From positions 2,046,001 to 2,110,000 of the forward strand of contig NC_019567.1 in the NCBI RefSeq assembly GCF_000317895.1: DNA of 64,000 nucleotides. Direction: 5' to 3'. Position numbers and translations under genes: made by a program. The notes under the pieces were generated by a model, which did not search any database, had not been told where the DNA came from, and saw only the letters and a list, made by a program, of their open reading frames with translations. Of the stretch, positions 54,892-59,663 are shown piece by piece (the stretch's first letter is position 1; every line of letters begins with the position of its first letter). The DNA comes from Bdellovibrio bacteriovorus str. Tiberius (lineage in GTDB: Bacteria; Bdellovibrionota; Bdellovibrionia; Bdellovibrionales; Bdellovibrionaceae).

Positions 54892-55272
54892 ATGAAAAAG
54901 CTTTTGTTGGTTTTGTCAGTTATGGGATCTTTGGCAGCGTGCAGTCACGGGAACTGCCGTGCCCAGAAGGAAGCTCAGAAAAACGCCCCTAAAAGCGAGG
55001 TTGTTGTGGAAAAATCAAAGTCCACGGATCGTGTGAAGGTGTTTAAGTACGACGGATCTTTGCAGTGCGGTCAGGGCAAGAAAATCGCCCCGGCTGAAAT
55101 GCAAAAAGACCTCAAGGGTATTGAGGTCTTTTCTTCATCCAATCAGAACGACGGGATGATGCGTATTCAACTTTGTGGAAGCCCTACAGGCAACGCCAAT
55201 GTCTACGAAATCGATCGTAAGGACCTGGACGCTGCCCTGAAGCTGGGCTTTAAAGAGTGGTTGGCTGAATAA
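54892..55272 (+). CDS. Small putative lipoprotein
   Basis: The 126-residue product has a lipobox LAAC (C17) and SD AGGAG. The mature part is Lys-rich, then a compact domain with SLQCGQG and QLCGSPTGN that may form a disulfide. No family is recognised. It is likely co-transcribed with bamB (9-nt gap). Its 3' end overlaps the Fic gene on the other strand by 23 nt. Confidence 0.78.
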   Translation: MKKLLLVLSVMGSLAACSHGNCRAQKEAQKNAPKSEVVVEKSKSTDRVKVFKYDGSLQCGQGKKIAPAEMQKDLKGIEVFSSSNQNDGMMRIQLCGSPTGNANVYEIDRKDLDAALKLGFKEWLAE

Positions 55273-57559
55273 GCAAACGCTCTTTGATTCTTTCTGTCGG
55301 GAGAGGACCTTCTCCCGGCACGTAGCGACCGTCGATCACCATCACTTCATTTGGCTTCTCGATATTTCTTAGAAGCGTTTCCATTACTTTACCAGCGGCA
55401 TCCAGTCTTTGGATCAGCATCACCGCATCTGGATCTGTACCACCGATACCCATAACTTCTGCCTGACGGCCGTAAGTGTAGGCGAATTCAGGGTCAAACG
55501 CTTTCAGGCGACCCAGGTCCACATCCTTCATCGCTCTGTAAGAAGCCACGTTGATACGGGACTTCAACTGAGACTGAAGGGCTGGATCCATGTGTTTGCC
55601 GTATTCACCAACAACCATCGCACCCATGGCGAAGGCCTTACCCACCACTTCACGTTTGGAAGTGGAGTAACCGTAAGAGACACCATATTTCGGTCCGCTT
55701 CTGTGGTGGTCAATGGCCATTTCAACCATGTCACCATTCAGGGATTCTTTGTTGTACAGAGCAAAGTCATTCTTAATAGCCTCAACCAGTGGAGTGCCGG
55801 AACGAAGAGCTCTTAGCACGCTGTTGGACACCAAGTGAGATGTTGGTTTTTTGAAGTAGTCCAACAGCTCTTGACGAGTCGGCTCTTTGGTTCTGTTGGA
55901 AAGACCGCGCCATACAAGCAGCTCTTTGTCATACCAACGGTTCATTTTTGCATCCCAAAGGGCTTTGGAACCGGAACGATTTACACCGAACATATCAATA
56001 AAGTCAGGATCAACCAGGCGCAGACCGATCTGGCGTTCGCCATCTTTATCGTGGATGTAGCGAACGGTTTTTGATCTGTAGTATTCAACAAACAAGTCAG
56101 CGATACGAGACATTGCACGCAGACGGTTGTTCTGGATCTCTACTTTCAATTCAGGGTGTGCCTGAACCAGGGCTTTGATGAAGGCGTTAAACTGCTCGGC
56201 ATCCACTTTGGTTTGAGCATAGTTTTCAACAACTTTGGTCTTGCCCTGTTGTTTCAAAGAGATGCCAACCATCTCTGGCAGACCCGGGTACAGCAACTCT
56301 GGAGAATGCTCTACAGTCAGACCATTTTTGATACGGAACAAAACATCAGCCTGCAAGTGAGCGTTGTTAACAACACCTTTATGTACGTATTCGCGCCATT
56401 CTTTCTGGGAAACCTGAACATCCAGGAAAGGATCCACCAGGCGAACAGGAGGCAAGCCTTCCTTCGTCAGAAGATAGTTCATCAACAGGCGAGTCGTGCG
56501 GCCGTTACCATTCAATACCGGGTGGATTGCCACCAGGTCACGCTGAAGGTCCGCTACGATATCGATATATCTGTGTTCATTGGTGCCGATTTTAACTTCG
56601 CCCAAAGCCGCGCGCTCAGCATTGAATCTTTCGAAACGCTGTTCAACCAGGGCTTTAGTGAAGGCCTGTTCCAGGGCCGGGGTGCCCTGACCATTCAAAG
56701 ACGTGCCGTTTTGTTCACGGTACGCCATGATTTCTTTATAAAGCTCCGGGTGGGAGTTTTTGATGATATCAACAGTGGCTTGTTTCGGAGTTGTTACATA
56801 TGGATAGTGAATACGGCCGCTGACCAAAGTGGTGTCGCCATTTTCCACAACCATGTCACGTTTGGAACCCCAGATTTTTACATTCTTCCATACGCCTTCA
56901 TTCAAAGTGCTGCCTTCGCGAGCGCTTTCAACAAAGTTCAGGTAAGGATTTTCCAGGACTACTTGAGCTTCTTTCGGCGTCATTTTGAATGCGCCAGCTA
57001 CGTTACCCATCCAATGACCATTGCGCCATACGCCCAATTGGTCTGCACGGATGCCTTCAACGCCGTTTTCCATAATGCGCTTATGGATCTCTGGCAGAAG
57101 TTCTGCGGTGATTGGAGGCTGTTCTTTTCTTAGGAAATTATCACGAGCGCTCAGGAAACCTTTAAATGGAGCTGCCTCAGCTTCGCCGCGATCGTAGATC
57201 TTGGAAAAGTCCATGGCTTCGCGTTTGCCTTCAAGGAAGTTAGGCAAAAGCTTTTCAGCTGTGTGCGTGTAATCGAAGAACTCGACTGAAGCCAGAAGAT
57301 GTTCAACCTGGGATTTGCGCTGTGGGGCCAGCTTGTCCAGGGTTGCCCAAAGGTCTGCTTTAATAGTTTTAAATTGCAGCAGTTCACGAGGAGTTTCCGG
57401 CTGTTTCACTTCAGAACGCAGGCCGAATTCCACACCGCGGGCTTTAACCTGCGGATCTGTAAAGACATACTCACACATCTGAGCGGCTTGCGCCGGGCTC
57501 ATAAAGCTGATTGTCAGTAACAGGGACAGCATGAACTTAAACATCTTATGCACAGGCAT
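55250..57559 (-). CDS. Secreted Fic-domain protein with ADP-ribosyltransferase-like C-terminus
   Basis: The 769-residue protein has a signal peptide ending SPAQA (SD AGAGGAG). The Fic motif at 346-354 reads HPVLNGNGR: the catalytic His and GNGR are present, but the acidic residue is Asn350. Fic enzymes transfer AMP or other phosphate-linked groups. The last 220 residues show the order of an R-S-E ADP-ribosyltransferase: R551 in LVWRGLS, S632-T-S in YGYSTSKREVVGKAF, and E738 in NEVMVIDGRYV. The fusion and export suggest an effector acting in prey or periplasm. The ART part is inferred from motifs. Confidence 0.85.
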   Translation of the reverse strand: MPVHKMFKFMLSLLLTISFMSPAQAAQMCEYVFTDPQVKARGVEFGLRSEVKQPETPRELLQFKTIKADLWATLDKLAPQRKSQVEHLLASVEFFDYTHTAEKLLPNFLEGKREAMDFSKIYDRGEAEAAPFKGFLSARDNFLRKEQPPITAELLPEIHKRIMENGVEGIRADQLGVWRNGHWMGNVAGAFKMTPKEAQVVLENPYLNFVESAREGSTLNEGVWKNVKIWGSKRDMVVENGDTTLVSGRIHYPYVTTPKQATVDIIKNSHPELYKEIMAYREQNGTSLNGQGTPALEQAFTKALVEQRFERFNAERAALGEVKIGTNEHRYIDIVADLQRDLVAIHPVLNGNGRTTRLLMNYLLTKEGLPPVRLVDPFLDVQVSQKEWREYVHKGVVNNAHLQADVLFRIKNGLTVEHSPELLYPGLPEMVGISLKQQGKTKVVENYAQTKVDAEQFNAFIKALVQAHPELKVEIQNNRLRAMSRIADLFVEYYRSKTVRYIHDKDGERQIGLRLVDPDFIDMFGVNRSGSKALWDAKMNRWYDKELLVWRGLSNRTKEPTRQELLDYFKKPTSHLVSNSVLRALRSGTPLVEAIKNDFALYNKESLNGDMVEMAIDHHRSGPKYGVSYGYSTSKREVVGKAFAMGAMVVGEYGKHMDPALQSQLKSRINVASYRAMKDVDLGRLKAFDPEFAYTYGRQAEVMGIGGTDPDAVMLIQRLDAAGKVMETLLRNIEKPNEVMVIDGRYVPGEGPLPTERIKERLLIQPTTL

Positions 57560-57702: not shown

Positions 57703-58884
57703 CTAGACGAACTTCGAAAGTGACAAGATGGCAGCATCCAGTTCTGCCTGAGTGTTATGAATATGCGGAGTCAGTCTTAAAACCGGAAAGCCTGGAACCC
57801 TTGGAAGTCCCACTTGCAAAGCAGGCTTTGAATCACGGACAAACAGGCCGTCAAATTCGATTCCGGGAAAACTCTCGATCTTGTAACATAATAGACTTGA
57901 AGCAATATCTGAATGACGGTCTTTAAGTGATTTGATCTTGAATTGATTTAAGCCGTCTTCAAGATAGTTCATACGTTTTTGAATTTCGGTTCTGATAGTG
58001 TCAGGTCCCATCTGATCCCAAAAATCAAAACAAGCTTCCAAACCATACAGGCTTGAATAGCTCATTGAATGGGACCACAGCATGCGCGCCGCAAACGGAT
58101 GATCACAATAAGCACCCATCCCAGGCAAAATCTTTTCTTCCGTGGTCCAAGACCCATAAGCTGGCTGCATTTGATTCTGAAGTACAGGATTCACCCAGGC
58201 AAACGCTGTGCCTTTGGGACCCATAAACCATTTATGCAGATTCCCGGCATAATAATCGACGTTTTGAAGGTCATTTGTGAAGTTTAAATCCAATAACCCG
58301 GGTGCGTGAGCACCATCAACCACCAGTAAAACGTTTTTAGCTCTTAATGCGGCCGCCAGTTTTGCCAAAGGTACAGTCAGGCCATTGCCGGTAAAGACAT
58401 GGCTGACGACGAATACACGGGTTTTACCCGAGATTTGCGATACGACCTTTGAAACCACTTCATCCGCTGAGATTTCATCATACATAAAATCCGCATTGAT
58501 AAAGCGCACAGAAAGACGGTCTTTGCGGGCCTTGAAATGCAGAATATTTACCACCGCACCGTATTCAAAGCTGGTCGAAAGGATTTCGGAGTCTGCAGGC
58601 AGCTGCAAACCCATGATGATTTCATTTAAAGCCAAAGTGACATTGGGGCGAAGAAACAGATCCTGAGGCCGGGCTTTGATGAAACGTCCCAGACGCTCTT
58701 GCAAGACCCACAGGCGAGCCCAGGCCGCACCATACCCTTTAGATGTGTTGTGTTCAAAAGTCCCAACCTCGGCTTTTTGCTGATCGATAACGACCGATGG
58801 GCACAAACCCAGGGTGCCGTTGTTGAGATTCACAAACGAAGTGTCTTTGTATTTCTCAAAAGCAGCGGTGAAATCCTGAAACAT
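57703..58884 (-). CDS. Class V aminotransferase-fold PLP enzyme
   Basis: The 393-residue protein resembles isopenicillin-N epimerase-like and cysteine-desulfurase-like enzymes. Features are FVNLNNGTLGLCPSVV at the start, the PLP-phosphate region SFEYGAVVNILHF, the Asp in VVDGAHAPGLLDL, and the Schiff-base lysine in YAGNLHKWFMGPKG. The exact reaction is unknown. It lies 2 nt after the NADAR gene and 143 nt before the Fic gene on the same strand. A GGGG/CCCC hairpin occurs in the latter gap. Confidence 0.88.
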   Translation of the reverse strand: MFQDFTAAFEKYKDTSFVNLNNGTLGLCPSVVIDQQKAEVGTFEHNTSKGYGAAWARLWVLQERLGRFIKARPQDLFLRPNVTLALNEIIMGLQLPADSEILSTSFEYGAVVNILHFKARKDRLSVRFINADFMYDEISADEVVSKVVSQISGKTRVFVVSHVFTGNGLTVPLAKLAAALRAKNVLLVVDGAHAPGLLDLNFTNDLQNVDYYAGNLHKWFMGPKGTAFAWVNPVLQNQMQPAYGSWTTEEKILPGMGAYCDHPFAARMLWSHSMSYSSLYGLEACFDFWDQMGPDTIRTEIQKRMNYLEDGLNQFKIKSLKDRHSDIASSLLCYKIESFPGIEFDGLFVRDSKPALQVGLPRVPGFPVLRLTPHIHNTQAELDAAILSLSKFV

Positions 58885-58886
58885 AA

Positions 58887-59663
58887 TTACTTATTACGAC
58901 CTTTACAGGTTTTCAAAGACAGATCTTCGTTGGTCACCAAAGACAACTGATTGTTTTTCAGCTGTTCGCGGATGTCCGTCCACAATAAATAGTAATGCCA
59001 TTCACGGGGGGATTTTTCCGAAACACCATGGTCGGGGAGAAGCTTCAGATCATTTGTTTTCACCAGAACATCCAAGACTTCAGGGTTCTGGCGCAGCTTT
59101 TCGATCAGGGCTTCAAAGATCAGATTATAATGCTCAGCGGGCTCTTTAGTCGCAAATGGAAACACTTTGCCTTCAAAGGTCACCCAGTTGGCGTCGTTTT
59201 TTTCCATCAGGAAGTTGGCGTAACCACCAGCGCTTTTTGCGGCATAGCCATTCATCTGGGAAACTTGTTCGCGGGTGTATTTCCAGTTCTTGGCCCAAGC
59301 CCAGCGAGGATCAGTTTCGGTCTCTGGGTATTTCATCATCTGCCAGAAAGCTTCAACCGTTGGATAGCAAACTCCATGGAATACGAACGAAGCTTCCGCG
59401 AAGTTTGAAAGCAGACCCAGTTCATTTCGTTTGCTTAGAACAACTTCCATACGGCCGGCATCTTGGGGAAGGATTTCCCAGGATTTGGCTTCTTCGCGCG
59501 GAACTTCTTTCCACCAGTGCGCCGGATATGGAGCTTTCCAGGAATCATCGGCTTTCGCGGCAGGTTTTACACCTTGGGTGGGCTTTTTATTGCTGGAATC
59601 TGAACAAGAAACCAGAAATGCTGTCAGAAGCACAAACAATGATACGAACGTCGTTTTAGCCAT
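58887..59663 (-). CDS. NADAR-domain (YbiA-like) lipoprotein
   Basis: After SD AAGGGGG the protein begins with a lipoprotein signal (lipobox LVSC, C20) and a linker of about 50 residues. The NADAR/YbiA domain follows: LGLLSNFAEASFVFHGVCYPTVEAFWQMMKY, then an EHYNLIFEALIEKLRQNPEVLDVLVKTND segment. Cytoplasmic NADAR proteins hydrolyse ADP-ribose from nucleobases or derivatives. An exported, lipidated form is topologically unusual. It starts the operon that includes the Fic/ART-like protein, so it could counteract ADP-ribosylation. Confidence 0.82.
   Translation of the reverse strand: MAKTTFVSLFVLLTAFLVSCSDSSNKKPTQGVKPAAKADDSWKAPYPAHWWKEVPREEAKSWEILPQDAGRMEVVLSKRNELGLLSNFAEASFVFHGVCYPTVEAFWQMMKYPETETDPRWAWAKNWKYTREQVSQMNGYAAKSAGGYANFLMEKNDANWVTFEGKVFPFATKEPAEHYNLIFEALIEKLRQNPEVLDVLVKTNDLKLLPDHGVSEKSPREWHYYLLWTDIREQLKNNQLSLVTNEDLSLKTCKGRNK

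Follow-up and report, generated by a model that had tools for sequence, protein, structure and literature searches.

A predicted ADP-ribose eraser of the NADAR superfamily with a lipoprotein leader is paired with a predicted Fic-linked ADP-ribosyltransferase in Bdellovibrio

Introduction

NADAR proteins have been studied in the cytoplasm, as antitoxins or metabolic repair enzymes, and the role of NADARs outside DarT operons is described as unclear (PMC11125620). In the DarT1-NADAR (DarTG1) toxin-antitoxin system, a cytoplasmic DarT-type ADP-ribosyltransferase (ART) acts on the cell's own DNA and is paired with a NADAR that reverses its product, and in the YarT-YbiA system of myxobacteria a small, stand-alone, non-secreted H-Y-E ART is paired in one operon with a NADAR-superfamily eraser (PMC11125620); neither pair is described as exported (PMC11543638, PMC11125620). 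Phage T4 encodes a 152-aa NADAR, gp30.3, which is active on guanosine-ADP-ribose (PMC11125620). The guanine ARTs ScARP, pierisin and scabin are secreted enzymes having an R-S-E core with an aromatic-x-x-Q-x-E loop, and NADARs, but not the bacterial macrodomain or ARH-like enzymes tested, remove the guanosine-ADP-ribose made on RNA by ScARP (PMC11833690). Secreted Rhs ART toxins also occur with immunity proteins, which bind the toxin.

Here we analysed a 64,000-nucleotide stretch (the window) of Bdellovibrio bacteriovorus str. Tiberius (NC_019567.1, positions 2,046,001 to 2,110,000), in which an earlier note, made from the sequence alone, had described a YbiA-like NADAR protein exported as a lipoprotein, encoded just upstream of a class V aminotransferase and a Fic/ART-like gene, and had inferred a writer and eraser pair of ADP-ribosylation acting outside the cytoplasm, perhaps protecting the predator from its own effector. 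The observation was confirmed, whereas the interpretation found support only in part: the pairing of an exported writer and eraser is well supported as genomics, but the chemistry and the self-protection role are untested. Among the fetched papers and literature searches, no exported NADAR and no Bdellovibrio Fic-ART were found. The locus departs from the known ART-NADAR pairs in that both partners carry export signals.

Results

A NADAR-fold protein opens a same-strand three-gene cluster

The NADAR ORF (58887-59663, minus strand, 258 aa) is the first gene of the cluster and is followed, after a 2-bp gap from its stop codon, by a class-V PLP-dependent enzyme (57703-58884, minus strand) and then, after 143 bp, by the Fic-ART gene (55250-57559, minus strand, 769 aa), so that strand, coordinates and gene order are as the note had given them. 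The PLP enzyme is most like PvdN/cysteine desulfurases and has no evident signal peptide; it is conserved between NADAR and Fic-ART in the genus, but its link to ADP-ribosylation is unexplained.

Pfam support from the single NADAR sequence was weak and below the curated cut-offs, with Phage_30_3 at 7.6e-6 (26.2 bits against 36) and NADAR at 0.0013 (19.4 bits against 35.1). However, a search of the phylum found relatives in 111 of 369 genomes, close orthologues (97-98% identical) being present in the genomes G133 and G136, and in a 67-sequence alignment 67/67 relatives matched Phage_30_3 and 59/67 matched NADAR; the alignment profile also found YbiA in the PDB (3.6e-5). A protein search of a phage collection found no relative of this NADAR. 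The AlphaFold2 model (pLDDT 90.9) gave only two credible PDB matches, namely YbiA (E 1.3e-4, prob 1.00) and the P. nicotianae NADAR-ADP-ribose complex 8bau (prob 0.99), although the TM-scores were modest (0.41/0.59 and 0.33/0.43, respectively). The label ‘YbiA-like’ is better stated as gp30.3/NADAR-superfamily.

The absence of active-site residues from a structural model had been named in advance as an outcome that would count against the note's reading. The catalytic positions were mapped to YbiA and T4 gp30.3, and they were found to be present. E104 and K111 align with the Glu and Lys of both proteins, which are shown to matter in the E. coli C7 NADAR (E88/K95, PMC11543638), W160 with a conserved Trp, D211 with the YbiA Glu of the last strand, and H212 with the phage His; the third catalytic residue, on the last strand, is Glu, Asp or His depending on the NADAR subfamily. 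Across the 67 sequences, E104, D211 and H212 are invariant (67/67) and K111 is kept in 58/67. Compared with this protein, gp30.3, the member of its closest Pfam family, shares the His at the catalytic strand position but lacks the extra acidic D211 and has no signal peptide. The protein is a predicted ADP-ribosyl N-glycosidase, its hydrolase activity having not been assayed here.

Export leaders are found throughout the NADAR relatives

The NADAR protein begins with a lipoprotein signal (59604-59663, minus strand), MAKTTFVSLFVLLTAFLVSC, which contains the lipobox LVSC with Cys20 and is followed by Ser at +2. By querying the relatives across Bdellovibrionota, we found that all 69 non-duplicate ones examined have a hydrophobic, Sec-type leader before the conserved YPxHWW motif, 36 with a lipobox-like sequence and the others type-I-like; for two of them (loci L029 and L057) the start codon was re-assigned by hand upstream, and a similarly loose criterion was met by 22 of 54 window ORFs. 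The anchor varies, while export does not. Ser at +2 suggests an outer-membrane lipoprotein by the E. coli rule, which was not examined for this protein.

The partner carries a predicted R-S-E-class ART domain

The Fic-ART protein has a type-I signal peptide, and most members of its family with a complete N-terminus carry type-I or lipoprotein-type leaders. The description Fic/ART-like was supported for both halves, for Fic by Pfam and for ART by fold. The Fic domain (56468-56767, minus strand; Pfam match to residues 265-364) scored 33.1 bits, above the cut-off, but the motif, most of which lies within it, is HPVLNGNGRTTR, with N where D/E is usual in HPFx(D/E)GNGRxxR, and on these two observations the membership in Fic/DOC stays undecided; the Fic reaction, if any, is not known.

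The C-terminal region (55250-56287, minus strand; residues 425-769) gave nothing credible in sequence searches against Pfam and the PDB, and only the fold search succeeded. The high-confidence model (pLDDT 91.1) matched ART-superfamily structures throughout the listed hits, including cholera-type, Rhs TreX/TreTu, pierisin-1, ScARP and scabin. R551, S632, S634 and Q699-x-E701 are invariant in 25/25 relatives and T633 in 24, and an aromatic residue, Y696, lies three before the Gln as in the ARTT-loop consensus x-x-aromatic-x-x-E/Q-x-E (PMC7827354), which conforms to the R-S-E class of ARTs. One relative (L107, genome G044) has lost the Fic motif but kept the ART triad, and its genome keeps NADAR. 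In contrast to the pierisin/ScARP guanine-specific ARTs, the loop has Tyr instead of Trp, no sequence similarity was detected in the PDB search, and these enzymes ranked below cholera-type and Rhs ARTs in the fold search. As for the Rhs toxins, which share the fold match and the toxin-immunity logic, no Rhs parts were recognised here, and the presumed immunity is an enzyme that erases the product rather than a binder. The locus conforms neither to DarTG1, as its ART is of R-S-E type, fused to Fic and separated from NADAR by a PLP gene, and both products have leaders, nor to YarT-YbiA, as the R-STS-QxE ART is part of a 769-aa protein and the NADAR is closest to Phage_30_3. It shares with DarTG1 the active-site Glu and Lys of the NADAR. 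In T4, gene 30.3 lies about 3 kb from alt, the gene of an injected ADP-ribosyltransferase that acts on RNA polymerase (L236:4455-9766).

In some members of a second family (f12), the Fic-ART module is the C-terminal end of 1,450-2,230 aa proteins (loci L088, L090, L105 and L106), of which those complete in L088 and L090 start with a signal peptide, and the N-terminal parts match no Pfam family in the two scanned.

ART-bearing genomes usually carry NADAR

The order NADAR / PLP enzyme / Fic-ART is kept in all eight Bdellovibrio loci compared, one of which, in genome G137, has a tandem Fic-ART duplicate with a single NADAR (L109:10144-14924). Fifteen same-genus genomes lack both genes, with one weak 42-position fragment hit in G153. 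In G134, the Fic-ART is cut off before the Fic motif and the ART is gone, yet NADAR is intact.

A lack of co-occurrence in relatives was the other outcome that the note had set beforehand as speaking against its reading, and it was not observed. In f12, which is separate from the Bdellovibrio loci, the genes are mostly unlinked, being within about 4 kb on one contig in two genomes (G047 and G055), and yet 30/35 ART-bearing genomes have the exported NADAR against 24/94 others (Fisher 6e-10). A Pagel correlated-evolution test on a prfA tree of 100 genomes yielded an LR of 33.4, whereas 60 simulations under independence gave at most 10.1; the species tree rests on one gene, the genomes include drafts, and the distribution of the two families outside Bdellovibrionota was not surveyed. 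Macrodomain and ADP-ribosylglycohydrolase (ARH) erasers showed no link with the ART (3/35 versus 20/94, LR 7.9, p 0.10; and 4/35 versus 17/94, LR 4.2, p 0.38, respectively). A further control with other Fic proteins (1/17 with NADAR, Pagel LR 15.2, p = 0.004) was discarded, because those genomes were chosen as lacking the ART and so are not independent; it also shows that moderate LR values occur in this tree, and we therefore rely on the bootstrap and the macrodomain and ARH controls.

Over the phylum, 38 of 50 ART-bearing genomes have NADAR. That the other twelve have NADARs missed by a single-sequence search was tested with a profile and rejected, as they lacked a NADAR relative by this search as well, so the pairing is not obligatory. 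Conversely, 73 of 111 NADAR genomes have no recognised ART, so NADAR must also do something else or meet other ARTs.

Discussion

We favour, at about even confidence, an exported ADP-ribosylation writer-eraser module, the two proteins probably working as a pair outside the cytoplasm. In this view, the Fic-ART protein would leave the predator's cytoplasm through its signal peptide, and its R-S-E ART domain with a QxE loop would transfer ADP-ribose from NAD+ to a target, most plausibly guanine bases of nucleotides or nucleic acids; the NADAR lipoprotein, probably on the predator's outer membrane, would hydrolyse the N-glycosidic ADP-ribose bond and thereby keep the predator's own envelope, or molecules it takes up, free of the modification. 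What the analysis has shown is the two proteins with their leaders, predicted folds and catalytic residues, the conserved gene cluster, and a co-occurrence that goes beyond phylogeny and is specific for NADAR, while catalysis, guanine as the target, the reversal of this ART's product by this NADAR, the exact location and the self-protection role are inferred. The ART carries the QxE loop of guanine ARTs, and the co-occurrence pattern therefore points, by inference, to an N-glycosidic, perhaps guanine, adduct; however, Asn-modifying C3 enzymes also share the loop (PMC7827354), and the best fold matches of the ART are protein-modifying toxins rather than guanine-specific ones. NAD+ in the periplasm is expected to be scarce unless prey lysis supplies it, no activity was measured, and outside the genus the genes are mostly unlinked. 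The asymmetry, namely that the ART is rarely found without NADAR but NADAR often without the ART, is what an immunity-like eraser would show, although protection against other ARTs, or nucleotide processing in the prey, would also fit.

A phylum-wide exported NADAR family tied to an exported ART would move reversible ADP-ribosylation outside the bacterial cytoplasm and give predation biology a candidate effector and its immunity. A further-reaching reading, which we regard as unlikely though not ruled out by the data, is that predatory bacteria use extracytoplasmic ADP-ribosylation of guanine, in prey nucleotides or nucleic acids, as part of predation and protect themselves with an exported enzyme that erases the mark; this would be a toxin-immunity pair, spread across the phylum, in which the immunity is enzymatic reversal outside the cytoplasm.

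Other explanations were considered less likely. NADAR could be a general exported shield or detoxifier against ADP-ribosylation by prey, phage or competitors, with the Fic-ART only one of several sources, so that the two co-occur as parts of an attack/defence toolkit; NADAR being about twice as common as the ART (111 against 50 genomes), the persistence of NADAR-only lineages and the position of exported NADAR relatives next to other exported enzymes in some genomes conform to this possibility, but the association is specific to NADAR, and the one-cluster arrangement in Bdellovibrio is unexplained by it. That Fic and ART act together on the same exported target in a double modification, with NADAR only a co-transcribed accessory that possibly binds rather than catalyses, appears very unlikely: the Fic domain is kept in most family members and the genes share a cluster, yet the NADAR catalytic residues are invariant or nearly so in 67 sequences, and the L107 relative without the Fic motif retains the ART triad in a genome retaining NADAR.

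Somewhat less likely than the shield is a salvage role, in which NADAR cleaves ADP-ribose-linked or other N-glycosidic nucleotides from prey in the bdelloplast to feed nucleotide uptake and the ART link reflects lifestyle. This does not predict the ART-specific association after phylogenetic correction, but the family is present in many genomes without the ART, and YbiA acts on small riboflavin intermediates (PMC11543638). In addition, in four genomes the exported NADAR lies beside large proteins of 800-900 aa with UDG-like motifs, possible base glycosidases (L118:4733-7300, L120:8878-11283, L124:8446-11166 and L055:2698-3576), of which the two translated ones have signal peptides, one matches the uracil-DNA-glycosylase Pfam family (1.3e-5) and others show GQDxxH-like motifs.
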